Position numbers and translations under genes: made by a program
The notes under the pieces: model-generated
What the model saw: only the letters and a program-made list of their open reading frames with translations
What the model was told of the DNA's origin: nothing
Database searches by the model: none
From: a virus
Direction: 5' to 3' (one strand)
DNA length: 28,468 bases
Virus record (IMG/VR): IMGVR_UViG_3300007028_000002
Location: 1 to 28,468 of that record
Shown: one piece after another, positions 2,848 to 27,674 of the stretch
How positions within the stretch are numbered: position 1 is the stretch's first letter
Layout of the letters: each line of letters opens with the position of its first letter

Positions 2848-3822
2848 TTAACTATCGGCGTCTAGGTTCTTGAAGAGATCCTCCACCTGCTCTTCGTCGT
2901 TCGGGTCAAACTCAATCCCGCCGCTGTGCTCTACCTGCTGCTTCTGCGTCGGCTTGCCGCGGTTGCGGTTGAAGATCGTCCGCACAGCCTCCAGGACCGT
3001 ACGCTCGTCTCTGCCGTCGTCTAGGAGCCGCTCTAACTCCCGTATGCCCTTGTACTCTAGCTTCTGTAGGGCGTATGCGATCTGATCTTTCTGCTTATCG
3101 AGCATCTTAGAGGCGCACGCCTCGACGTAGTCGGGCCATCCGTACACTGTGTCTCTGTGTATATCTACGTGCTCCGCGGCGTATGCCTTCACGGAGTGGC
3201 TCTGTCGGGCCAGCACATAGCGGCGTTGGTTGTCGGAGAGGTGAGCCCAAATCGTCTCAAAGTCGTCTTGTGACGTCGGTGTGTAATCGGGATCGAGCGG
3301 GCCCGGCTCGTCTTCCTGGTCCTCTGTGTCGACGTCGTCACCGGCTCCGGCCTCCGGCCCGGCCCCACGCGCGCGACCCTCGGAGCGGGCATCGGCGCCG
3401 TCTCGACCCTCCCCAGCCGGATCACCCTCCGAATCTTCCGTCTCAGATCCCGTCCCCTCAATCCCAAGATCCGGCACCTCTCCGGTCCCTCCGTCCCCAA
3501 GTTCACCGTTCCCCTGAGCCTCTAAAGTCTTGCCCTCCTGAGCCCCAGGTTCGGCGCCTCCTTCGTCCCCAGGTTCCAGGCCTTCCGCTTCAAGGGCTTC
3601 ATGTAGATACCGATCGAGCTCCCAGGCCTCTCCCTTTGTGACGAGGTCTTCCATCCATGCCCAGGCCGTCATAGCCTTCACACCGTCTACGGCCCCGTGC
3701 TTCTCTACGTACTTGGAGAGGGTCTCCTCTGCTAGCCCACTGAGGTGTTCTTCTGTGAGGGCTCCGAAGTCTGGGGCCTTTCTTGTGGTGGTGGTGTTGT
3801 TGTCTTTGTCTTCCTTTGACAT
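2848..3822 (-). CDS. terS: terminase small subunit (probable) with long acidic linker
   Basis: A 324-aa protein. Residues 1-79 are helical and residues about 80-183 are a low-complexity Gly/Glu/Asp/Pro linker. Residues about 186-232 hold a helix-turn-helix resembling small terminases (FETIWAHLSDNQRRYVLARQ, then KAYAAEHVDIHRDTVYGWP). After it comes a helical oligomerisation-type region (LEYKGIRELERLLDDGRDE) and a short acidic tail. Small terminases bind the packaging site on DNA and load the large subunit. The HTH-then-helix order and position upstream of large terminase support the call. Oddities are the roughly 100-residue disordered acidic insert and a total length about twice the usual. 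It could be a fusion of an unknown N-terminal domain to a terminase. Confidence 0.8.
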   Translation of the reverse strand: MSKEDKDNNTTTTRKAPDFGALTEEHLSGLAEETLSKYVEKHGAVDGVKAMTAWAWMEDLVTKGEAWELDRYLHEALEAEGLEPGDEGGAEPGAQEGKTLEAQGNGELGDGGTGEVPDLGIEGTGSETEDSEGDPAGEGRDGADARSEGRARGAGPEAGAGDDVDTEDQEDEPGPLDPDYTPTSQDDFETIWAHLSDNQRRYVLARQSHSVKAYAAEHVDIHRDTVYGWPDYVEACASKMLDKQKDQIAYALQKLEYKGIRELERLLDDGRDERTVLEAVRTIFNRNRGKPTQKQQVEHSGGIEFDPNDEEQVEDLFKNLDADS

Positions 3823-3913: not shown

Positions 3914-4189
3914 TTAGGGCTTCAAGTGTGCTTCACACCGGGGCCATGAACGTGTAAAGTCCCAACCCTGTGATTGAGCTAGGTCTTTATCAATCGTGGC
4001 GTCTGCTGCGTAGCAAAGCCCCTGCGCGTACGTGATTGTGGTGGTGATGAGCGCGTCTTGTGTCTCTGCCATCACGAGCTCGACGAGCCCAGGCCGGAGG
4101 ATTGCGTATCGGGCCTGTCCGATGATCGTGTCTACAGGGTACGTGTGGTCCCAGGTGTCGGACTGTGGGAGGGCTCTGTGTGCTGTCAT
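3914..4189 (-). CDS. hypothetical 91-aa protein, first gene of a late transcript
   Basis: Not recognised. It is soluble, with a central hydrophobic/Ala-Thr stretch (ALITTTITYAQGLCYAADAT) too polar for a confident membrane helix. It is the first gene after the TGTTTATATATAAGTA motif (about 109 nt upstream), followed 91 nt later by small terminase. The start context is AAGCTATG with no Shine-Dalgarno. Its position suggests expression with the packaging and head genes. No function can be assigned. Confidence 0.65.
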   Translation of the reverse strand: MTAHRALPQSDTWDHTYPVDTIIGQARYAILRPGLVELVMAETQDALITTTITYAQGLCYAADATIDKDLAQSQGWDFTRSWPRCEAHLKP

Positions 4190-4222
4190 AGCTTACATAT
4201 CTAAGGTCTAGATACACAGACG

Positions 4223-4245
4223 GCCCCAGGTGTGAGGCCTGGGGC
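4223..4245. repeat. 8-bp GC-rich hairpin in late leader
   Basis: GCCCCAGG (4223-4230) and CCTGGGGC (4238-4245) form a perfect stem with a 7-nt loop, between the late-promoter motif and the 91-aa gene. No T-run follows on either strand, so it is more likely a leader stem-loop or stability element than a terminator. Confidence 0.6.
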
Positions 4246-4297
4246 GTGAAGTGCTGGTGGTCGTCTGTGTGAGGGGCTTCTTTTGCTACCAGCTGCT

Positions 4298-4313
4298 TAC
4301 TTATATATAAACA
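4298..4313 (-). promoter_or_regulatory. putative late promoter, copy 1
   Basis: On the minus strand this reads TGTTTATATATAAGTA, identical over 16 bases to 26661-26676. Both lie 16-17 nt after the stop codon of the preceding gene, with a C-rich stretch starting (G/C)CACCCC between, and both lie about 110 nt before the first gene of a structural operon. An AT-only 16-mer repeated exactly in GC-rich DNA at equivalent places is strong evidence for a shared regulatory element. Promoter identity and direction are inferred. Confidence 0.75.
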
Positions 4314-4329
4314 TCGGCCGTCGGGGTGC

Positions 4330-4872
4330 TCAGATCGTCTCAATCCGTTTCCAGACCTCCGCGGCTGTGCCGTCGATCTCTCCTTCCTCGACAAGCTCCC
4401 CGAAAAGCGTAGGGACACCAAAATCCAGTCCCTCCAGTCCGTTGTCCCCAGGTGTGTACTCAGGAAGCTCCTGTGTGAGACGCGTCGTGTGCTCCACGTA
4501 GCGGCGTACGTACTGCCGAAAAGCGTTCGCAAGGTAGTATTCCAGGCATCCCCGTTCCGCGTCGTACCGGATCATCACGAGCTGAAACAGTTGGTAGGTC
4601 TCCGCTAGTACGTCGTCGAGTGTAAGCGTGGAGTCCTCTGCACGTCCTAGCTCTTTTGCAGCTATGTGGTAGATAGCTTCTATGTGTAGAGCGTAGAGGG
4701 AGTAGAGCGTAGAGGCTTGTTCGTTGGTGGGCGGGCACGAGCGGAGCGCGACAGCCGGAGATTCCGCGTCTGCTACTTGGGAGGCCTCTTCCTGCCAATC
4801 TTCGATCTGCCCCAGGTAGTGCGCTTCGTCCCGGCTCGTGTCCGCGTGTTGTCGTATCTGTGAGGGCGTCAT
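4330..4872 (-). CDS. sigma-70 region 2-like protein, candidate late regulator
   Basis: A 180-aa protein. Residues about 58-128 resemble sigma-70 region 2, the part that binds core RNA polymerase and melts the -10 element: LTLDDVLAETYQLFQLVMIRYDAERG followed by YYLANAFRQYVRRYVEH, matching the usual pattern DDLxQE...RYDPERG...YLxxxIRxxIxRY. No convincing region 4 is seen; the C-terminus is short and acidic. It is the last gene of an early operon (6 nt after the 81-aa gene), and the first putative late promoter begins just after its stop codon. This context suggests a phage sigma or sigma-like activator that switches on structural genes. The resemblance is by eye, and an unrelated helical protein is the alternative. 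Confidence 0.6.
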   Translation of the reverse strand: MTPSQIRQHADTSRDEAHYLGQIEDWQEEASQVADAESPAVALRSCPPTNEQASTLYSLYALHIEAIYHIAAKELGRAEDSTLTLDDVLAETYQLFQLVMIRYDAERGCLEYYLANAFRQYVRRYVEHTTRLTQELPEYTPGDNGLEGLDFGVPTLFGELVEEGEIDGTAAEVWKRIETI

Positions 4873-4878
4873 TGGGTG

Positions 4879-5124
4879 CTAGTCTCTGAGAGAGGACATT
4901 AGGTGAGACTCCACACGGTTCGCTGTGTCGAGGATGTCGGGCGTGTGCGTCGGCACGTCGAAGCCGTCACGGGAGAGCCGGGAAAGGAGCGCACGGAGCT
5001 CGTTCCATCCTAGCCGGACGTAAACACAGTAGACCGCAAGATCGGTCGGACGGTCGTACGTCTGTAGTGCATGTTTTAAAATGACGCGGGCTTCACGGAG
5101 TCGGATTGAGGTGTCGGGTCTCAC
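4879..5124 (-). CDS. hypothetical 81-aa protein
   Basis: Not recognised. It is helical and basic at the N-terminus (MRPDTSIRLREARVILKHAL), with YVRLGWNELRALLSRLSRDGFDV in the middle. It starts with GTG at 5124, overlapping the stop of the upstream 50-aa gene as GTGA, and ends 6 nt before the sigma-like gene. The tight packing shows an operon of three co-translated small genes driven from the early promoter at 5301. A partner or regulator of the sigma-like protein is a guess from position only. Confidence 0.7.
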   Translation of the reverse strand: MRPDTSIRLREARVILKHALQTYDRPTDLAVYCVYVRLGWNELRALLSRLSRDGFDVPTHTPDILDTANRVESHLMSSLRD

Positions 5125-5300: not shown

Positions 5301-5317
5301 GTATACTTATTATGGGC
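5301..5317 (-). promoter_or_regulatory. putative early promoter, copy for the 50-aa/81-aa/sigma-like operon
   Basis: On the plus strand it reads gtatacttattatgggc. Aligned without gaps it matches 6682-6698 and 12683-12699 at nearly every position (consensus GTATAnYTATYATGGG). The distance from the motif's left base to the start codon is 28 nt in all three. Read in the direction of transcription it ends in TATAC, like a -10 element. Confidence 0.72.
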
Positions 5318-5550: not shown

Positions 5551-6654
5551 TTACTTGAACGCCTCCGCAATGTACGGTCGTGTCGATGGGATTTTGTTCC
5601 ACATCCACTGTACGAAGTCCCGGTCAACGTTGACTAGGCGCGTCCCTTTGTGTTTGCTGAAGTTCATCACAATGTAACCTTGATCGTCTGTGATGAAACG
5701 TCCGTTATTGTCGAGAGTTCCCTCATACGTAGATACAATGTCGCCACTGCTTATGTGTCCTTCTAAGGGGAGATCCTCTAGCTGATCTAGTAGGATGTCG
5801 AAGGACGCCTTAGCGTCGACCTCCGCCGTGTGTGCGTCGTCGATCGGGCTCCCGAAGCGCCGCTCGTACGTCGCCCCAAGTGTATGCGGGTTAACGATTT
5901 GCTCAATCTTGAGGGTGTCCACAAGGCGCCGATTCGAGGGGCCTGGAATGCCTTGGTATCCTAGGTCGACAAAGTGACGACGAAGAACGGGGACGTCGTG
6001 ACGAGCGATGTTGTGGCCTGCTAGGTCCGCATCCTGTAGCAGATAGGCAAGCCGCTTTGCGATGCCCGCGAAGGCCACGTCCGCTTCTACGAGCTCGTCT
6101 TGTACGTAGAGGTCGCCTCGTTGCTCGACGACACGGAGGGCTGCGATCTCTGTGATCTCCGCTTCCTGGGGATCGAGGGATGTCGTCTCCAGGTCGATAA
6201 TGACGAGGGGCCGTGTGAGTGCGAGGCCGGGCTCGTCGGTGTGGGGTGCGGAGTGGAGTCGGTGGCCTGGGAGCGCACGTGTCTCCGTGGAGGTGTCGAG
6301 CTCCTCTTCCTGCTGCGTGGAATACGATCCGGTCTTCCGAAGCGTGGGGAGCACGTCGTGGGCCAGCCACCGCTTAAAGCGCTCTGCTGCGTCCTTGCGA
6401 GAGGTGAAGATGAGCCGGTAGATGCCCGCCTCGTTGATAATGTTCACTTCACGAAGATGCCCTTTAACGGCTCCTGACCGCGCCTTCATAGTAGTTACCC
6501 CCTTCTCATCATCGTCTAAGCGCGACACCGCTCGTGTGGCGTTGGAGATTGTGAGTGCATCACACACGTCCTTTGCGACGAACCAAACCTCTCCGTCGTC
6601 GTCTTTCGTGATGTGTATCTCGTGCTCGTCAAATGTGCGTGTGAGTGTGTCCAT
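5551..6654 (-). CDS. BRO-N / DnaQ-like 3'-5' exonuclease / ExoX-C-like fusion
   Basis: A 367-aa protein with three parts. Residues 1-113 are a BRO-N (Bro/KilA anti-repressor type) DNA-binding domain (EVWFVAKDVCDAL, then INEAGIYRLIFTSRKDAAERFKRWLAHDVLPTLRKTG). Residues about 150-293 are a DEDDh exonuclease, with Asp154/Glu156 in VIIDLETTSL, Asp220 in AGHNIARHD, and His275/Asp280 in HTAEVDAK. Residues about 315-367 resemble the small C-terminal domain of exodeoxyribonuclease X (FSKHKGTRLVNVDRDFVQWM). All catalytic residues are present, so it should degrade or proofread DNA 3' to 5'. It follows an early promoter by 28 nt. BRO-N fused to an exonuclease is unusual; it may target the nuclease to specific DNA or make it an early effector. 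Confidence 0.9.
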   Translation of the reverse strand: MDTLTRTFDEHEIHITKDDDGEVWFVAKDVCDALTISNATRAVSRLDDDEKGVTTMKARSGAVKGHLREVNIINEAGIYRLIFTSRKDAAERFKRWLAHDVLPTLRKTGSYSTQQEEELDTSTETRALPGHRLHSAPHTDEPGLALTRPLVIIDLETTSLDPQEAEITEIAALRVVEQRGDLYVQDELVEADVAFAGIAKRLAYLLQDADLAGHNIARHDVPVLRRHFVDLGYQGIPGPSNRRLVDTLKIEQIVNPHTLGATYERRFGSPIDDAHTAEVDAKASFDILLDQLEDLPLEGHISSGDIVSTYEGTLDNNGRFITDDQGYIVMNFSKHKGTRLVNVDRDFVQWMWNKIPSTRPYIAEAFK

Positions 6655-6698: not shown

Positions 6699-6780
6699 AG
6701 CCTCTGAGAGTAGATGAAAAGCTGAGAGCGTCAAGGGTGTCCGTAAGGGTGCCCACATTGTGAGTACCCCTGTGTCACGT

Positions 6781-6868
6781 CGAGGGGCTGCCTGTGAGGT
6801 GGCGAGGGGCTCCCTGTAACCTGGGGAGAGGTTGCCTGTATCGGAGGGAGAGTGTGCCTGTGTGCCGT
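6781..6868. repeat. four tandem imperfect 22-bp repeats (iteron-like)
   Basis: Units start at 6781, 6803, 6825 and 6847. The shared core is GAGGGGCTGCCTGT with variants (units 1-4: CTGCCTGTG, CTCCCTGTA, GTTGCCTGTA, TGTGCCTGTG) and the 22-nt period is exact. Directly repeated 18-22-bp units are typical of plasmid iterons bound by a Rep protein, but also of repressor arrays. A related pair of units lies at 11394-11437. Confidence 0.7.
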
Positions 6869-7088
6869 TCAGGGGATCGAGGTGAGGCGCCGGGCTACGG
6901 CCGTCGTGGTGCCGTACATCGTGAGTTGGGTAAATGTTACACACCTGGGGCGTTGTGTGTCATTGTGTCAGAGTGACAGGACAGGCTCGTGTCGGAGAGA
7001 GGTGCGGTCTGGTCCTGCTGCCCTGGAGTCGAGGGCTGAGGCTGGGTGCGGTGTGCGGCGTACGTGCGTTACGCGTGCGTGCGAGAGG

Positions 7089-7213
7089 CCCTCTTCTCTT
7101 TCATCCTCCTCCTGCCTCCTCTCCTTTTCCCCTCTTTTTCTCCCCCTCACACTCCCCCTCTATTATCTCCCCATAACCTCACCTCCTGTCCTCCGCCTGC
7201 TTTCTCTTCTCCC
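7089..7213. other. 125-bp pyrimidine tract
   Basis: By hand count about 112 of 125 plus-strand bases are C or T (for example CCTCCTCCTGCCTCCTCTCC). No gene is present. Such strand-biased tracts can form triplexes or easily melted DNA and can act in replication or as unstructured RNA. Function is unknown. Confidence 0.75.
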
Positions 7214-7420
7214 GAAGCCGGAGAGCTAAGGTACAACCCCCCACACAGGACCGACTGAGCCTTACACGATTCTAGGAAGCTTAATGCGCGCATAATGCAC
7301 ACACGCACACGTCCACGCGATACACGCCCACGCGTAACACACACGGACACACACGGACGGGCTGGAGCCGGATTCCTGTCCCAAGACACGCCCTCACAGC
7401 CGCGCAGGCTGCCGAGACTT

Positions 7421-7502
7421 GCCCAGATCGCACGATCTCCCTGAATTGGTATCTAGCCACTAGCTAGGAGAGATCGCCGCTTAGAGACGAATCTGAGGCG
7501 TC
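7421..7502. repeat. compound direct repeat, copy 1
   Basis: It has two conserved blocks. Block 1 (7421-7445) contains AGATCGCACGATCTCCC, itself a near-palindrome, and matches 7751-7775 at 21 of 25 positions. Block 2 (7478-7502), starting CGCTTAGAGACGAATC, matches 7808-7832 at all 25 positions. The blocks are separated by exactly the same distance in both copies. Confidence 0.85.
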
Positions 7503-7750
7503 TGGGGACGTATCGGCGCTTCCTGGGGTCGCTCTGCACCCTCATTTGCTTTCTGAGCTCTCTACAGTCGCCCATGCGGCAATTTGCGGGCCTAACTCTT
7601 CGAGGCAAGGGGTACCCCAAGGCCTACCCCCGTTCGGCTCTTAGAGGCCATCCTGAGCAGTCTGAGAGCAAATGAGCACCTCGTTGGGGGCGTCCTCTGT
7701 AGATCCGGGCCCGCTAAGAGTGCTCAGAGCTCGCTGTGTTGCTCAGATTG

Positions 7751-7832
7751 GCTCAGATCAGACGATCTCCCTTAACCCATACCTTGCCCCAGCTCTCACC
7801 CTTGCGTCGCTTAGAGACGAATCTGAGGCGTC
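7751..7832. repeat. compound direct repeat, copy 2
   Basis: Same two-block design as 7421-7502, displaced by 330 bp, with block starts 57 bp apart in both copies. Between the copies lie inverted CTCATTTGCT-type sequences (about 7541-7550 and 7664-7673) and the palindrome GGGGTACCCC (7609-7618). A centromere (parS) or origin component is plausible. Confidence 0.85.
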
Positions 7833-8073
7833 GTAGTCGACTACGGCCGGACTCCAGGTGTCGGCCGTCGGTGTGTAGAAATTACCCACGTCCAGACTCA
7901 CCGTGACAACATGACAGATTGGCAGAAGTGTGGCACTTGACATTGGGGAGCGTGAGAGCGTTACTGTGCAGCACGTGACGAACGATCGAGTAAGGTGGGG
8001 GCCGAGCTCGATCGGGAGCGTAAAGATGTGGAGATCATATACGACTAAACAAACTGCTTGGGGCTCTGAGCAG

Positions 8074-8159
8074 GGACTCGCGCCGAGTCCGCGCTCTCCT
8101 TCTCACATCGGAAGGGGAGACCGCGTCCCCTAATCGGTGCGGGCTCCTGCTGAGAGCCC
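8074..8159. other. cluster of three stem-loops
   Basis: Three perfect hairpins follow one another: GGACTCG/CGAGTCC (8074-8090), GGGGA/TCCCC (8114-8130) and GGGCT/AGCCC (8141-8159). With the terminator at 8181 and the inverted repeats just beyond, they suggest a structured RNA or a replication-type stem-loop region. Confidence 0.5.
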
Positions 8160-8180
8160 TTTCTCTTTGCCTTGACATAG

Positions 8181-8211
8181 AAAAGCCCCGGCCTGGAGTA
8201 CAGACCGGGGC
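8181..8211 (-). terminator. intrinsic terminator, minus-strand direction
   Basis: On the minus strand GCCCCGG, a 13-nt loop and CCGGGGC are followed by TTTTCT. The stem is 8185-8191 with 8205-8211, and the T-run is 8184-8181. It implies a minus-strand transcript coming from the 8220-9000 region, where no convincing protein gene is seen. Confidence 0.7.
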
Positions 8212-8228
8212 CAATCCTTACGAGCCGA

Positions 8229-8322
8229 CGACGGACACGGTTTTAGTGGACCAGTCCGTCGCGGTAACACCTCACTAGCTTCACACTAGTAAGCCGACTA
8301 ACGATTGTGAACCAACCGTGTC
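8229..8322. repeat. nested inverted repeats
   Basis: CGACGGAC (8229-8236) pairs perfectly with GTCCGTCG (8254-8261). The overlapping GACACGGTT (8234-8242) pairs perfectly with AACCGTGTC (8314-8322), so two mutually exclusive folds are possible. AGCCGAC also occurs twice (8223, 8292). Alternative pairings of this kind are typical of regulatory RNAs. Confidence 0.55.
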
Positions 8323-8855
8323 GACCCATTTCTAAGCCTCTCTCCCCCAGCAGTTCCGTAAAGCCCCCGTAGCGTCATAGGGGATTCAAGCGACGTGCGG
8401 AGGGTTGTTCAAGGTATTTGACGTTGCGTACGTCCGGCGTCTCCAGGGGTAGACTCTAAAGACACCCAAGACAGGGACAACGGGGGCAGTGGTCGCACCT
8501 GTCGCGTACACCGAAAGCCCGAAGCGCAGACCCAGGCGTCTCCCCAGGCGTCTTAAAGTAGCGGGCAAGCGTCCGACGTGGGGACTCGATCGGACGGCTG
8601 TGACGGCTCTCCAGACCTCTACACGGCGTTGCCAGTCACAGGTGGTGCACCTTCGCCGCAAAGTCGTGGTTTTCATCGACTTAGCGGCGGGGCTGCTCCA
8701 CCTATGGCTGATCGAGATCCGACATACACAACGTTGCAATAACGGCAGTAGGTAGAGAGGGGGCAAGGAACGATGCCGTAGGCGAGTGAACGCCCCCGAG
8801 CGGTGGTGTGTAGAGACGCACACACGCGAAGACGAGCTCCGCTGTGTGGGGTCTG

Positions 8856-8951
8856 GAGGCAACCCCGTAACTTCCGGGGATAACCCACCAAATCGCCGTT
8901 TCTCGCCGTTGAAAGGGGGGTAGAGCAACCCCCCAATCGGGAGGGTTGCTC
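8856..8951 (+). ncRNA. repeated structured element, copy A (candidate non-coding RNA)
   Basis: A 96-bp element aligned over its whole length with 12739-12832. Shared parts in order are a first hairpin CCCC-loop-GGGG with a different loop sequence, TAACCC, the invariant AATCGCCGTTT, GTTGAAAGGGG, and a final hairpin with GCAACCC/GGGTTGC arms. Compensated stems with changed loops favour a folded RNA; the last hairpin could serve as a terminator on the plus strand, although only TCCTTTG follows. Strand is not certain. Confidence 0.55.
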
Positions 8952-8973
8952 CTTTGTGAAGACTCTTTGATGA

Positions 8974-9037
8974 TGTTGTCCGTCTAGGGAACACCTAGCT
9001 CACTCACACATCTAAGCCCTTGCATCAAGACAGACAC
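8974..9037 (+). promoter_or_regulatory. duplicated control element upstream of the HTH gene
   Basis: Three boxes: TGTTGTCCG (8974), GGAACAC (8988) and GCATCAAGACAGACAC (9022). The same boxes recur at 9338, 9352 and 9386 upstream of the next gene with identical spacings (14 and 48). The most likely role is a promoter with operator, possibly bound by the HTH protein encoded just downstream. Confidence 0.7.
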
Positions 9038-9072
9038 CGCCCACTCACACACGCAAAATACCGCTAAGATCC

Positions 9073-9327
9073 ATGAACACGAAATCACTAGACGAACTCA
9101 CGACAGCGATTCAGCAGGCCCGCGAAGACACCGGGGACACCTACGCAGAGGCCGCCCGTAGAGTCTCCGACCTACGCGATAACGAAAATATCGACCGCAC
9201 GCACGTCTACAAGACCTTGAACGGCGCCGCAAGTCGCTACAAGCCCGTAGCCCGTGACCTCGCCCGTATCTACCTCGACGTAGAGGTGAAGATCGAGACG
9301 CCACGGTACGAAGTCGTTTCACTGTAG
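9073..9327 (+). CDS. small HTH regulator (Cro/XRE-like, probable)
   Basis: An 84-aa protein. Residues about 20-70 fit a lambda-repressor-type helix-turn-helix: TYAEAARRVSDLRDNENIDRTHVYKTLNG followed by ARDLARIYLDVEV. Such proteins bind operator DNA and set phage gene expression. It is the first plus-strand gene after the large non-coding region, and its upstream control boxes are duplicated before the next gene, so auto- and co-regulation is likely. There is no partner CI-like gene divergent to it. Weak AAGA precedes the ATG. The family is assigned by pattern only; it could equally be a plasmid copy-control protein. Confidence 0.6.
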   Translation: MNTKSLDELTTAIQQAREDTGDTYAEAARRVSDLRDNENIDRTHVYKTLNGAASRYKPVARDLARIYLDVEVKIETPRYEVVSL

Positions 9328-9717: not shown

Positions 9718-10287
9718 ATGAACACGACGACAGAGACCACGAAGATCACGCCCGGCTCCCTCGTGCAGATCGACCGCACGAACGTCCCACGCGGTGTCGA
9801 CATTGACAGTCTCGACGAATACGAGCGGGCCGTGATCGAGCATGAGAGCTTCACCGCTGTAGTGAAGTCGGCAGAGGGCGTATGCTACGCGAAGGAAGTC
9901 GAAGGGGAGCGCGTGCACACATTCCATTGGCCCTGTGAGGACGTGGAGCTTTTGGGTACAGTAGAGCGTGAGGCGTTCCGGTTCGAGGTCCCGACAGACG
10001 GGCTCGTTGGGGAGTATCCCGGCGACACCACGACGTTCGAGGCCGTGCCACGCGACGAAGGTGGTTGGACCATAAAGGGGCCGCACACCTTCCCGATCGT
10101 CAAGGTGGACGCCTGGGGACGCTTTTGGCTTCGGACTCTTGGTGAGGGAGGTGCGTACACCGCACGGGCAGACGATCACGGCTTACGCACAACCTTAGAG
10201 ACGGCTGTGAAGCCTTTGAGACACACAGAGGTAGCGTGTTTAGAACACCTACGCGTCATACGCGACGCCTGCCCTCACCTCGACTGA
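9718..10287 (+). CDS. hypothetical 189-aa protein upstream of parA
   Basis: Not recognised. Acidic, beta-rich and soluble. The N-terminal part (PGSLVQIDRTNVPRG) could start a small barrel; the middle has WPCEDVELLGTV and the end has conserved-looking Cys/His (CLEHLRVIRDACPHLD). No catalytic motif is seen. It begins directly after the terminator at 9664-9689 and ends 65 nt before parA on the same strand, so it probably belongs to the maintenance operon. A replication initiator would be expected near here in a plasmid, but nothing in the sequence shows Rep features. Confidence 0.7.
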   Translation: MNTTTETTKITPGSLVQIDRTNVPRGVDIDSLDEYERAVIEHESFTAVVKSAEGVCYAKEVEGERVHTFHWPCEDVELLGTVEREAFRFEVPTDGLVGEYPGDTTTFEAVPRDEGGWTIKGPHTFPIVKVDAWGRFWLRTLGEGGAYTARADDHGLRTTLETAVKPLRHTEVACLEHLRVIRDACPHLD

Positions 10288-10352
10288 GCTTTACATCCTG
10301 CTACCTCCTTCGTACTTACTTCCTAGCTACACTAAAGCTACAAGCTGATCCT

Positions 10353-11090
10353 ATGCACACGACAATCGCCAATCTCAAAGGTGGAGCGGGCAAGACGACC
10401 TCCGCGGTCTGTTTTGCCGACGTACTCTCCCGTGAGGGCCACGTACTGGTTCTCGACCTCGATCCCCAGGCTACGCTTTCCGCGTGGCTATGTGGGCGCG
10501 ACGTGGGAGCTCGTGAGCTCCTAGTGGGAGACTTTGACCCTGGGGAGCACGTGAAGAGCGTACACGATCGTCTCGACGTAATCCCGGCAAACCGGAGCCT
10601 GGAACGGGCGTCGGGGAAGCGTGCGTCGGAGCTTGCCGCACGCCTCGAACGCCTGTGGGACGCTGTGAGTGGATACGAGTACATCCTTGTCGACACACCG
10701 CCCCAGGCCGGGAAGCTCGTCACGGCTGCGCTTATGTCCAGTGACGACGTACTGTGCCCCGTCGCGCCGGGCCGTGGAGCCGTGGACGGGCTCGTACACC
10801 TACTCGACTACACGCGCCGGATCGGAGGTGCAGAGGTACGCAAAGCGTTCGCGTGCAACGTCGATCTCCGCTCTAAGCTGCATAAGCAGGTCCCCCAGGA
10901 CCTCCAGGATAAGCTAGGGGAGAAGGCGTCTCGCCACTTTGTACGCTCGACTGTGCAGCTACAGGAAGCGGAAACGGCCTCTGAGCTCCCGTCGTCCTAC
11001 TGCCCCGACGCCACGGCCTGGGAGGATTACGAGGCACTTACGGCCGATCTTTTCAACCTCTCTACTGAAAGCAAAGGAACCACGACATGA
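10353..11090 (+). CDS. parA: ParA-family partition ATPase
   Basis: A 245-aa protein. The deviant Walker A KGGAGKTT is at residues 9-16, DLDPQ at 35-39, and the Walker B region is YILVDTPPQ near 109-117. ParA proteins bind DNA non-specifically with ATP and move plasmid copies apart with a centromere-binding partner. The small size and lack of an N-terminal HTH match type Ib plasmid ParAs, which pair with ribbon-helix-helix proteins, exactly what follows. The ATG at 10353 is chosen because it puts the P-loop at the usual place; an in-frame extension to 10236 overlaps the previous gene and adds non-ParA sequence. Its stop overlaps the next start (ATGA). Confidence 0.93.
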   Translation: MHTTIANLKGGAGKTTSAVCFADVLSREGHVLVLDLDPQATLSAWLCGRDVGARELLVGDFDPGEHVKSVHDRLDVIPANRSLERASGKRASELAARLERLWDAVSGYEYILVDTPPQAGKLVTAALMSSDDVLCPVAPGRGAVDGLVHLLDYTRRIGGAEVRKAFACNVDLRSKLHKQVPQDLQDKLGEKASRHFVRSTVQLQEAETASELPSSYCPDATAWEDYEALTADLFNLSTESKGTTT

Positions 11091-11347
11091 GCGACAAGCC
11101 GTCATTCGACTGGAACTCCGACGACGCGGGCTTTGAGGAAGACGAGAAAGGCCCCAAACGTCCCCGCGACTGCGGGCCCCATGCCGATGACTACGACCAT
11201 TTTGAGAAGCCCCGGCGCGTTCAGATGAACGTGAAGATTGCAGACGAGATCAAAGAGCGATTCGCGGAGGCTGTCGAGGCCGACAACAAGACCATGCAAT
11301 TCGTCGTCGAGGATCTGCTCAGGCTCTACCTCAAAGACCGTGAATAA
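11087..11347 (+). CDS. ribbon-helix-helix partition partner (ParB/ParG-like)
   Basis: An 86-aa protein. Residues 1-42 are acidic and probably flexible, and residues 43-86 fit a ribbon-helix-helix (RRVQMNVKIADEIKERFAEA, then MQFVVEDLLRLYLKD): a short beta strand for DNA contact followed by two helices. It overlaps parA by 4 nt and has a good Shine-Dalgarno (AAAGGAA), so the two are co-translated. In type Ib systems this protein binds centromere repeats, represses the operon, and stimulates ParA through its flexible N-terminus; that role is inferred from the pairing. A strong terminator follows directly. Confidence 0.85.
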   Translation: MSDKPSFDWNSDDAGFEEDEKGPKRPRDCGPHADDYDHFEKPRRVQMNVKIADEIKERFAEAVEADNKTMQFVVEDLLRLYLKDRE

Positions 11348-24893: not shown

Positions 24894-25706
24894 TTACTCC
24901 GTGATCTGAGCTTCGACGAAACCGTTCGGCTGCGTGAGGGTCGAGCCCGCAACGTGGAGGCCCTGAATCACCGTGCCGCCGGGGTAGCCGGGCGCGTTCT
25001 CAATCACCTGGAGGTCGACAACCGTGTCCGCATATGTCTGGTGGAAGCGGGAACCGAAGAGCGAACGAATCTCACTTGTGCCGGTGACGTCGAAGAAGCT
25101 CGTAGGCCGTCCATAGACCTCAAAGCCGTAGTAACGGCCAATCAGTCCCGACATGAGGGCCTCGTCTCCGCGCTCCGTGCCGCGTGCAGCGATCTCGTCA
25201 TACACGAGCCGTGCAGTAGAGGCCGGAACGACTGCGAACCGTTGGGCCTGGGGCACACCCTCGTTGTTGAGCGTCTCCTGTGCCTGTCCGAAGAGGTCGG
25301 ACACGTCAGGGGAAGCAATCGACTGGTCAAAGTCGAAGTTGTTGCCCGCGTCGGAGGCGTTGGTGAGGATGTACTTATCGGCCTGCTCCAGGACCTCCGC
25401 AAACGTCTCGCCTGCGAAGTCTTCCGCGTACGCCTCCAGGTTCTCAGAGCCGTCGAGAACGAAGGCAAAGGCTTTCTTGTGGTCTGGGGAGATCGTGCGC
25501 GGGGTGGCGTCGACGTTCTCCTCAATCGAGATAGCGCCGCCCGTGTAGTCCTGAACGGTACCGCTCTGGGCAATTGTGACCTTCACGGAGCTCTCCGGCC
25601 CGAGGGTGCCCTCGTAGTTCCGGTTTGCAATGCCGTTTGCAAGCTGCTCGTGACGGAGCTTCCGCTCCAGAGAGCCGGTGAGAAGTGTTTCTGTGGCTGA
25701 ACTCAT
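24894..25706 (-). CDS. major capsid protein (HK97-fold, probable)
   Basis: A 270-aa acidic protein with many Asp/Glu and few Lys. Order scaffold, this gene, connector is the classic head cassette. Segments such as LFGQAQETLNNEGVPQAQRF followed by AVVPASTARLVYDEIAARG read like the long 'spine' and P-domain parts of small HK97-fold capsids in which an assembly tag is absent. The C-terminus is beta-rich (IQGLHVAGSTLTQPNGFVEA). No protease gene or N-terminal delta domain is seen, consistent with the separate scaffold. Family assignment is by context. Confidence 0.82.
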   Translation of the reverse strand: MSSATETLLTGSLERKLRHEQLANGIANRNYEGTLGPESSVKVTIAQSGTVQDYTGGAISIEENVDATPRTISPDHKKAFAFVLDGSENLEAYAEDFAGETFAEVLEQADKYILTNASDAGNNFDFDQSIASPDVSDLFGQAQETLNNEGVPQAQRFAVVPASTARLVYDEIAARGTERGDEALMSGLIGRYYGFEVYGRPTSFFDVTGTSEIRSLFGSRFHQTYADTVVDLQVIENAPGYPGGTVIQGLHVAGSTLTQPNGFVEAQITE

Positions 25707-25728: not shown

Positions 25729-26550
25729 TTAGGTAACTCGCCCCTCTTTTAGGGCGCTACGAAGTTCGTTGTACTCGTCCTCTGAGAGCTCTGCGGCGTC
25801 CTCCATTTTGGACTCCCACTCTTCGCGTGTGTAGGTGCGTCCTCCAGACGATCCACTGCCGGGGTCGTCGTCGGGACCTCCTTCCATCTTCGTACTCTCA
25901 AAAGCGAAGCTGTGGGCTGTGGGGAGCTCGTCGGAGAGGGTTGTGATGTCTTCGGGGGCGTGGACTTCGTTGCGCCGAATGTTGCCGTTTTCGTCAACCG
26001 GGACAACCGTGTCGTCTTCGATCGTGACGCTGTCCTCGAACTGCCGACGGAGCATCTCTTCCGCACCGTCGCGGATCGGAGGGGCGTTCTTTTTGACCTT
26101 CTCCCACGCCTCGTTGAGTCGCCGTGTCCGGTCTTTCTGCCGGAGGTCTTCAAGCTCCTCTTTTGCGCTTTCGTACTTGGAGGCCCGCTCCTGTAGGTCT
26201 TGGATCTCGTCATCCTTCAAAGAGCCTTTGGGCCGTCCGTCCTCCCGGAGCTCGATCCCACGGTCTGTTGCGAGAGACTTAAAGAGTGTGTCGGGGTCGA
26301 GGCCGTCGAGGTCGACGTTGCCGTCTTCGTCCGTGTACTCCTGGGGATCGAGGCCCACGCTTTCAAGGGTCTGTTTGTAAGCGCGGGGAAGCCGGTTCGA
26401 GATCGCCTCGTTGATCGTGTCTTGCGTGACGAGGCCGTCGGGGAGCTCTTCGTTTGTGAGCTCTTCGTCTTCACCGATCTCGATTGCCGAGGCCGGGACT
26501 TCGACTTCGTTCTCTGTGCCGTCTTCGTTTTCGAGCCGTACGATGGGCAT
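25729..26550 (-). CDS. capsid scaffolding protein
   Basis: A 273-aa, very acidic protein with a central coiled coil (DDEIQDLQERASKYESAKEE to about residue 155) and a flexible Gly/Ser-rich stretch (PDDDPGSGSSGGRTY) before a C-terminal helix (EDEYNELRSALKEG) that could bind the capsid subunit. It directly precedes the capsid gene (22-nt gap) and is the first gene after the second late-promoter motif. Scaffolds guide procapsid assembly and are then lost. There is no protease motif. Confidence 0.85.
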   Translation of the reverse strand: MPIVRLENEDGTENEVEVPASAIEIGEDEELTNEELPDGLVTQDTINEAISNRLPRAYKQTLESVGLDPQEYTDEDGNVDLDGLDPDTLFKSLATDRGIELREDGRPKGSLKDDEIQDLQERASKYESAKEELEDLRQKDRTRRLNEAWEKVKKNAPPIRDGAEEMLRRQFEDSVTIEDDTVVPVDENGNIRRNEVHAPEDITTLSDELPTAHSFAFESTKMEGGPDDDPGSGSSGGRTYTREEWESKMEDAAELSEDEYNELRSALKEGRVT

Positions 26551-26660
26551 AGTGTGGGGTCCAATATGTAGCCAGAGGAGACTTGTGTGGGCGCCCTCTG
26601 TGAGGCGCTAGCCGTCGTGCGTGACGTGGTCGTCTCCGGGGTTTCCGTGTGGAGATCACG

Positions 26661-26676
26661 TACTTATATATAAACA
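26661..26676 (-). promoter_or_regulatory. putative late promoter, copy 2
   Basis: The minus strand reads TGTTTATATATAAGTA, identical to 4298-4313. It is 17 nt after the stop of the MuF-like gene and 111 nt before the scaffold start, so it would boost scaffold, capsid and tail genes separately from terminase and portal. The preceding CTCCCCAT also resembles the left side of the early motifs. Confidence 0.75.
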
Positions 26677-26693
26677 AATGGGGAGGGGGGTGG

Positions 26694-27674
26694 TCAGCCT
26701 CTAGGGGACTCGTGTACGAGCCCGATAACGTCCCGCATCTCCTTCGCTTGTTTCTCTGCGTGGGCGTCTGTGACGGTCCTGTCTCCGCTGTACTGCTTCA
26801 TGCGGGACTTTAGAGCCTGGGGCTCGATTGCAGGACGATCGGGAGCCGGTCGCCTGGTACCCCAGTTCTCCGGTGATTTGAGCACCGCCACGACAGAGCA
26901 CTTACAACGAGGGTGCGGTTGTGAGGGAATGTAGCTGGGATGATACAGGCCCCCTCCGAAGCCGTGGAGGTCTTCCTGTGCGAAGAGGTCGCACGCGTCC
27001 GGTGCGTGACGCCCGCCGTGTGCTGGGCTTAGAGTCCACTCTAGGAGGTCGATCGCTGGGTTCTTCGCTGCTACTTGTTTGGAGGTCTCGTCGACGACTG
27101 CCGAGAGCTCCGTCTCTCCCATACGTTCAAGGTTGCCGAATACGTGGGGCCCGGTCCCAATCCCCAGGTCTACTTCCGTTTTTGCATCGGCACCACGTTC
27201 GAGAAGACGCCCCAAAGCCTTACTATACTCGTTCTCCGATACCTGGGCCTTGATCGTGGGAAGCGTACGGCGTAGGGGCTCTATGCCGTCCTCCAGAGCT
27301 TTCCGTACGAACCTGGGGGCTGTTGCGTCCAGGCCTCGACGCTTGTACGGATCTACGTCTATACTCGTCGGGTCGAAGGAGGGCGTAGCTAGCTGCACGT
27401 CCTTCGAGATGGAGCGATACGCCTCCGCGTGGGCCTGTTTGATCCGGTTTTCCGCGGTGGCCCGTGCGGACTGCATCGACCGCGTAGCGTTCACCTGGAG
27501 CTCTCGTAGGCCCTCCTCTAGTGCCCGCTCCGGCCTGTCGGATCTACGCACGCGCTGCACGAGGATTGCGTATTGCTCCTCTGTGCTGGATAGGAGCTCC
27601 GCTAAAAGGCTGCCGGTGCCCCAGATGAGGGCCGTAAGTGCGTCCTCTAAGAAAGCGTTGAAGTCGTCTTCCAT
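26694..27674 (-). CDS. MuF-like minor head protein
   Basis: A 326-aa protein with a helical N-terminal half and a C-terminal MuF/SPP1 gp7 head-morphogenesis domain: LLEWTLSPAHGGRHAPDACD, then YHPSYIPSQPHPRCKCSVVA, the usual Cys/His-containing P-HPRC-C pattern. Such proteins are minor capsid components injected or bound near the portal. Its start overlaps the portal stop (TAATG) and its stop lies just before the second late promoter. Length is normal. No toxin domain is fused at the C-terminus. Confidence 0.88.
   Translation of the reverse strand: MEDDFNAFLEDALTALIWGTGSLLAELLSSTEEQYAILVQRVRRSDRPERALEEGLRELQVNATRSMQSARATAENRIKQAHAEAYRSISKDVQLATPSFDPTSIDVDPYKRRGLDATAPRFVRKALEDGIEPLRRTLPTIKAQVSENEYSKALGRLLERGADAKTEVDLGIGTGPHVFGNLERMGETELSAVVDETSKQVAAKNPAIDLLEWTLSPAHGGRHAPDACDLFAQEDLHGFGGGLYHPSYIPSQPHPRCKCSVVAVLKSPENWGTRRPAPDRPAIEPQALKSRMKQYSGDRTVTDAHAEKQAKEMRDVIGLVHESPRG

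Follow-up and report, generated by a model that had tools for sequence, protein, structure and literature searches.

The window analysed here is the whole of record IMGVR_UViG_3300007028_000002 (positions 1 to 28,468; 28,468 nt), with a GC content of 59%. Its first 99 bases recur at its end, and this 99-bp terminal repeat shows it to be a complete tailed phage genome. TerL is 62% identical to that of the Salinibacter phages M1EM-1 and M8CR30-2 (genus Holosalinivirus), a kinship that points to Salinibacter or a near relative as the probable host. The minus strand carries the late genes, namely a 91-aa ORF, terS, terL, and the portal, minor head, scaffold, capsid, and tail genes. A sigma-like gene lies next to the first of these. 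Two relatives carry a homologue of it, G004 (37.5 kb) and G005 (33.4 kb), whose proteins are 34% and 26% identical to that of the window, respectively. In all three genomes, the sigma-like gene is followed by packaging genes and, farther on, by the scaffold and capsid genes. The features of the window considered below are as follows:

2848..3822, minus strand: terminase small subunit gene (terS; phrog_2538, E=2.2e-7), second gene downstream of copy 1 of the repeated element
3914..4189, minus strand: 91-aa ORF, first ORF after copy 1
4214..4271, minus strand: strong hairpin within the copy 1 leader, ahead of the 91-aa ORF (z-score of folding -3.7; none of 200 shuffles was as stable)
4298..4313, minus strand: copy 1 of the element TGTTTATATATAAGTA, beginning 16 nt beyond the stop codon that ends the sigma-like gene
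4323..4329, minus strand: C-rich box GCACCCC, just after the stop and 9 nt before copy 1, with 6 of 7 bases common to the copy 2 box (suggestive only)
4330..4872, minus strand: sigma-like gene, 180 aa, ATG start; region 2 spans approximately residues 50-137, and region 4 is absent (NCBIfam, AlphaFold/Foldseek, homologues)
4879..5124, minus strand: 81-aa gene that immediately precedes the sigma-like gene, a placement also seen in G004 and G005
5304..5310, minus strand: partial match ATAAGTA upstream of the operon of 50-aa, 81-aa, and sigma-like genes (could be chance)
24894..25706, minus strand: major capsid gene (phrog_267, E=2.5e-10), second gene after copy 2
25729..26550, minus strand: probable scaffold gene, the first downstream of copy 2, named from its position before the capsid gene
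26577..26640, minus strand: two-hairpin leader element (about 60 nt) that follows copy 2 and precedes the scaffold ATG, conserved in four phages
26661..26676, minus strand: copy 2 of TGTTTATATATAAGTA, beginning 17 nt past the minor head stop codon, with a 110-nt leader between it and the scaffold ATG
26687..26693, minus strand: C-rich box CCACCCC, just after the stop and 10 nt before copy 2 (suggestive only)
26694..27674, minus strand: minor head gene, whose stop precedes copy 2

Pfam and PHROG searches returned no family match for the 91-aa ORF. The scaffold gene has homologues at the corresponding position in Holosalinivirus, L123, G004, and G005. Elsewhere in the genome, a single gene (5551..6654, minus strand) fuses a Bro-N antirepressor domain with an RNase T/DnaQ-type exonuclease domain. 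Between it and a plus-strand block lie about 2.3 kb (about 6700..9070) lacking convincing coding genes, which could hold a replication origin or unannotated RNAs. Genes for ParA-type ATPases were found in the window (10236..11347, plus strand) and in G004 (L135:1118-1729, minus strand), which suggests a plasmid-like latent state.

Sequence and predicted fold of the sigma-like protein

In the preliminary description, the segment DDVLAE..RYDAERG..YYLANAFRQYVRRY of the 180-aa product had been read as sigma-70 region 2 in a protein lacking region 4. The segment is present, and the reading was borne out by NCBIfam, by matches of the homologues, and by AlphaFold and Foldseek. The NCBIfam profile TIGR02937 (sigma70-ECF) matched residues 58-141 of the window protein at E=3.6e-4, with a score of 20.2 bits, below the curated cut-off of 42.9. 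This alignment covered only positions 5-83 of the 165 in the profile, that is, its first half, corresponding to region 2. The G005 homologue matched the same profile (E=6.6e-4) and PHROG sigma family 1740 (E=7e-4), and its best Pfam match was Sigma70_r2 (PF04542; E=0.03). Every sigma profile match fell below the curated cut-offs, so that similarity to region 2 is seen at the level of E-values and not at that of the curated thresholds. Direct searches of the window protein in Pfam, PHROGs, and PDB yielded no sigma match, and hhalign against small sets of gp55 and E. coli sigma sequences gave nothing significant. The best local alignment to E. coli RpoS was in the correct register (LDDVLAE to LDLIEE and YDAERG to FDPERG), with z=1.9. 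The C-terminal part of the window protein matched no HTH family, and no region 4 was detected there. As the match to the ECF profile ends at position 83 of 165 and region 4 with its HTH is missing, assignment to the ECF sigma factors was rejected.

Structure prediction, a check that had been proposed, recovered almost only sigma factors. The AlphaFold models of the window and G005 proteins had pLDDT values of 62 and 75, respectively. When searched against PDB with Foldseek, the 50 matches listed for the G005 model appeared all to be sigma-factor chains, and such chains made up most of the matches listed for the window model. The best domain match was the N-terminal domain of SigE (TMt 0.77, rmsd 2.4). 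The region 2 fold is indicated by lists dominated by sigma factors for both models, although individual E-values were weak (0.16 or worse). A viral-structure search with the G005 model likewise placed many phage sigma factors among the matches. Judged by its region 2, the protein is a divergent member of the sigma-70 family at scores below curated cut-offs, and from the profiles and models together we consider it highly likely that it is a sigma-70-type protein with region 2 identity.

G004 also encodes a second sigma-like paralogue of 271 aa (L135:5784-6599, plus strand), whose tail resembles region 3 by eye and in which region 4 is not apparent. The two sigma-like genes of this phage flank one for a GIY-YIG-like protein with a region-4-like HTH (L135:6647-7459, plus strand), a probable homing endonuclease.

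An exact repeat upstream of two late gene blocks

The element TGTTTATATATAAGTA occurs exactly twice in the 28,468 bases, and no other site was found even with 3 mismatches allowed, where shuffles predict 0.03 sites. This confirms the earlier statement that the motif following the sigma-like gene is repeated exactly only before the scaffold and capsid genes, and the distances of 16 nt (copy 1) and 17 nt (copy 2) from the preceding stop codons agree with the 16-17 nt originally given. None of 5,604 control comparisons was as good as the exact repeat. Both copies are oriented toward the downstream genes, and they account for the only two AT-only runs of at least 11 bases in the window. The shorter sequence ATAAGTA occurs four times, every time on the minus strand (4298, 5304, 25372, and 26661). 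Each copy had been placed about 110 nt before the first structural gene; the leaders are indeed 108 and 110 nt long, but the first ORF after copy 1 is the 91-aa ORF, which is not recognisably structural, with terS next. Ahead of both copies, at a distance of 9-10 nt, stands TGA[G/C]CACCCC, which starts within the stop codon. When the 16-mer was searched in all viral contigs, the matches lay almost all in AT-rich contigs and none in relatives; scans of the genome collection likewise found none.

The element had also been described as an extended -10 promoter. In it, two bases rather than one separate TG from TATATA, and the correct register would put T at -11; it is therefore not a canonical extended -10. 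An archaeal TATA box was considered from the sequence and dropped because the relatives infect Salinibacter, a bacterium.

G005 and G004 each have a two-copy element of their own, with one copy after the stop of the sigma-like gene and the other in the gap that leads up to the scaffold gene. In the window, G005, and G004, these pairs are the best two short-element matches of the genome, and they are directed toward the genes. The G005 element (TTTATTGAYAMGAYGAGGG..CACTTCTC) is an imperfect repeat of 39 nt (0 of 6,594 controls as good), and the G004 element (CCCCCCATASCTAC) is a weak repeat (11 of 7,412 controls as good) whose scaffold-side copy is also seen ahead of the L123 and L150 scaffold genes. 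The sequence thus differs among the phages (TGTTTATATATAAGTA versus TTTATTGAYAMGAYGAGGG..CACTTCTC versus CCCCCCATASCTAC), and the notion of AT-only promoters holds for the window phage alone. Since the sequences are not conserved between phages, the common identity of the elements rests mainly on position. Homology of the window and G005 elements was not accepted, as the similarity of TTTATATATAAG to TTTATTGATAAG (10 of 12 bases) is suggestive and not significant.

Structured leaders

The leader element before the scaffold gene has a mean column identity of 76% across the window, L123, G004, and G005; the scaffold proteins are less conserved (27-39% identical to that of the window). It had no match in Rfam. 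Two base pairs have changed on both sides, a covariation drawn from four sequences only and thus from little data, and the fold of the window sequence alone is not unusually stable. We regard this leader element as a candidate RNA regulator. It shares ACGACCAC with the hairpin in the copy 1 leader (4214..4271). A similar hairpin precedes the capsid gene in both G004 and G005, and in Holosalinivirus one precedes the scaffold gene.

A C-rich tract comes after the stop codon at each of the six sites. It is highly improbable that the sites act as RNA or terminators (for example, through C-rich rut-like stretches after the stops) with the AT motif incidental: such tracts and the structured leaders that come next would fit, but an exact 16-nt repeat unique in 28 kb would be hard to account for, and neither window site showed a terminator-like hairpin with a T run.

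Interpretation of the repeated sites as late promoters

A sigma-like gene with region 2 only, together with an identical element heading two late gene blocks, suggests a compact late-gene switch. The computed basis for this reading comprises the region 2 similarity, the lack of a detectable region 4, the exact, unique, and oriented repeat, and the position-matched pairs in two relatives, strong in G005 and weak in G004; from these we infer promoter activity at the sites, their recognition by this sigma, and late timing. We favor, with a fair measure of confidence, a switch in which a minimal phage sigma with region 2 alone serves the repeated element at two late promoters. The self-contained minimal-sigma switch put forward at the outset is retained in its main parts, the region-2-only protein and the oriented element at the head of two late gene blocks, and loses the canonical extended -10.

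Under this late-switch reading, the host polymerase would transcribe the upstream operon, including the genes of the 81-aa and sigma-like proteins. The phage sigma would then take the place of the host sigma, with region 2 docking on the host core RNA polymerase and reading a -10-like element, and there would be no region 4 to read a -35 element. Late promoter 1, just after the sigma gene, would drive the 91-aa ORF and the terminase, portal, and minor head genes, and late promoter 2 the scaffold, capsid, and tail genes. Transcription would be expected to start 6-12 nt downstream of TATATAAG. The weak TGA[G/C]CACCCC box lies 18-19 nt from TATATA on the upstream side and might serve as a -35-like signal, one that a sigma lacking region 4 would be unable to read alone.

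A weak upstream box (CTGASC, 18-19 nt before TATATA at both copies) also speaks for an unlikely alternative, in which both sites are ordinary strong promoters of the host housekeeping sigma and the phage protein competes with the host sigma or serves other promoters. TATATA is a generic -10 in a genome of 59% GC. However, no TTGACA/TATAAT-type promoter was called at either site, and the Bacteroidota -7 pattern TAnnTTTG is absent from both. Moreover, the elements differ in three related phages, all of which have the sigma-like gene adjoining one copy.

Alternatively, the repeat could be an operator for another phage regulator, such as a late-gene repressor in a latent state, which we consider very unlikely. 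TTATATATAA is a perfect palindrome, 12 of the 16 repeat positions are symmetric, and the presence of an 84-aa HTH protein (9073..9327; HTH_31, E=0.004) and of a ParA homologue (10236..11090) hints at latency or a plasmid-like existence. Yet the position-equivalent elements of G005 and G004 are not palindromic, and every copy shares the orientation of the downstream genes.

Comparison with known phage sigma factors

The proposed late-gene switch is probably of a kind already known from phages T4 and phiEco32. The phiEco32 protein phi32_gp36 has no region 4 and recognizes promoters made of one element, tAATGTAtA, located ahead of middle and late genes (PMC8948821). The window phage would resemble it if its element is such a promoter: region 4 is absent and the element precedes the late blocks, though the weak upstream box is also present. 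In phages 7-11 and phiEco32, late promoters lie at similar genome positions and their sequences differ along with the diverged sigma (PMC8948821); in the window phage, G004, and G005, the positions of the putative promoters are likewise kept while their sequences change. The 7-11 protein gp47 has region 4, whereas the window protein does not. The sigma factors of phiEco32 and 7-11 have been proven experimentally, in contrast to that of the window phage, which we infer by computation.

The T4 late promoter, TATAAATA, differs by one base from TATAAGTA. The late sigma gp55 of T4 is a 185-aa protein whose sigma similarity is confined to domain 2 and which serves a -10-like late promoter without a -35 (PMC2988020, PMC7892883). 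At 180 aa, the window protein is similarly very small, with its sigma similarity in domain 2, and both families have an N-terminal helix with an invariant W. However, hhalign against six gp55 sequences gave no significant match (E=0.23 over 16 columns), and shuffle z-scores against gp55 were not consistent. A search of the window, G004, and G005 for a homologue of the Holosalinivirus sliding clamp found none, and a T4-like clamp coupling is for this reason not favored. As the profile comparison fails and no such clamp homologue was found, membership in the gp55 family is not shown. If the late-switch reading holds, the window protein would work by analogy like phi32_gp36 and gp55.

In T4, gp33 stands in for region 4 (PMC2988020). 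By analogy with gp33, and because its gene is kept in three phages, the 81-aa protein is a candidate partner of the sigma-like protein. It is 33% identical to its G004 homologue (E=3e-8), with a weaker match in G005, and neither it nor the G004 homologue had a family match. We mention only tentatively, as a rather doubtful extension, a split sigma that arose separately from that of T4, in which the 81-aa protein would substitute for region 4 beside the region-2-only protein, and sigma and promoter sequences would have diverged together at fixed positions.

Neither Pfam nor PHROGs matches the window protein, and no holder of its sigma family had been labelled before. If the late-switch reading is true, it would define a late switch for phages of Salinibacter-like bacteria with genomes of 28-38 kb, much smaller than that of T4. 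The three phages, with two promoters each, would provide a natural test of joint change in a one-domain sigma and its promoter.
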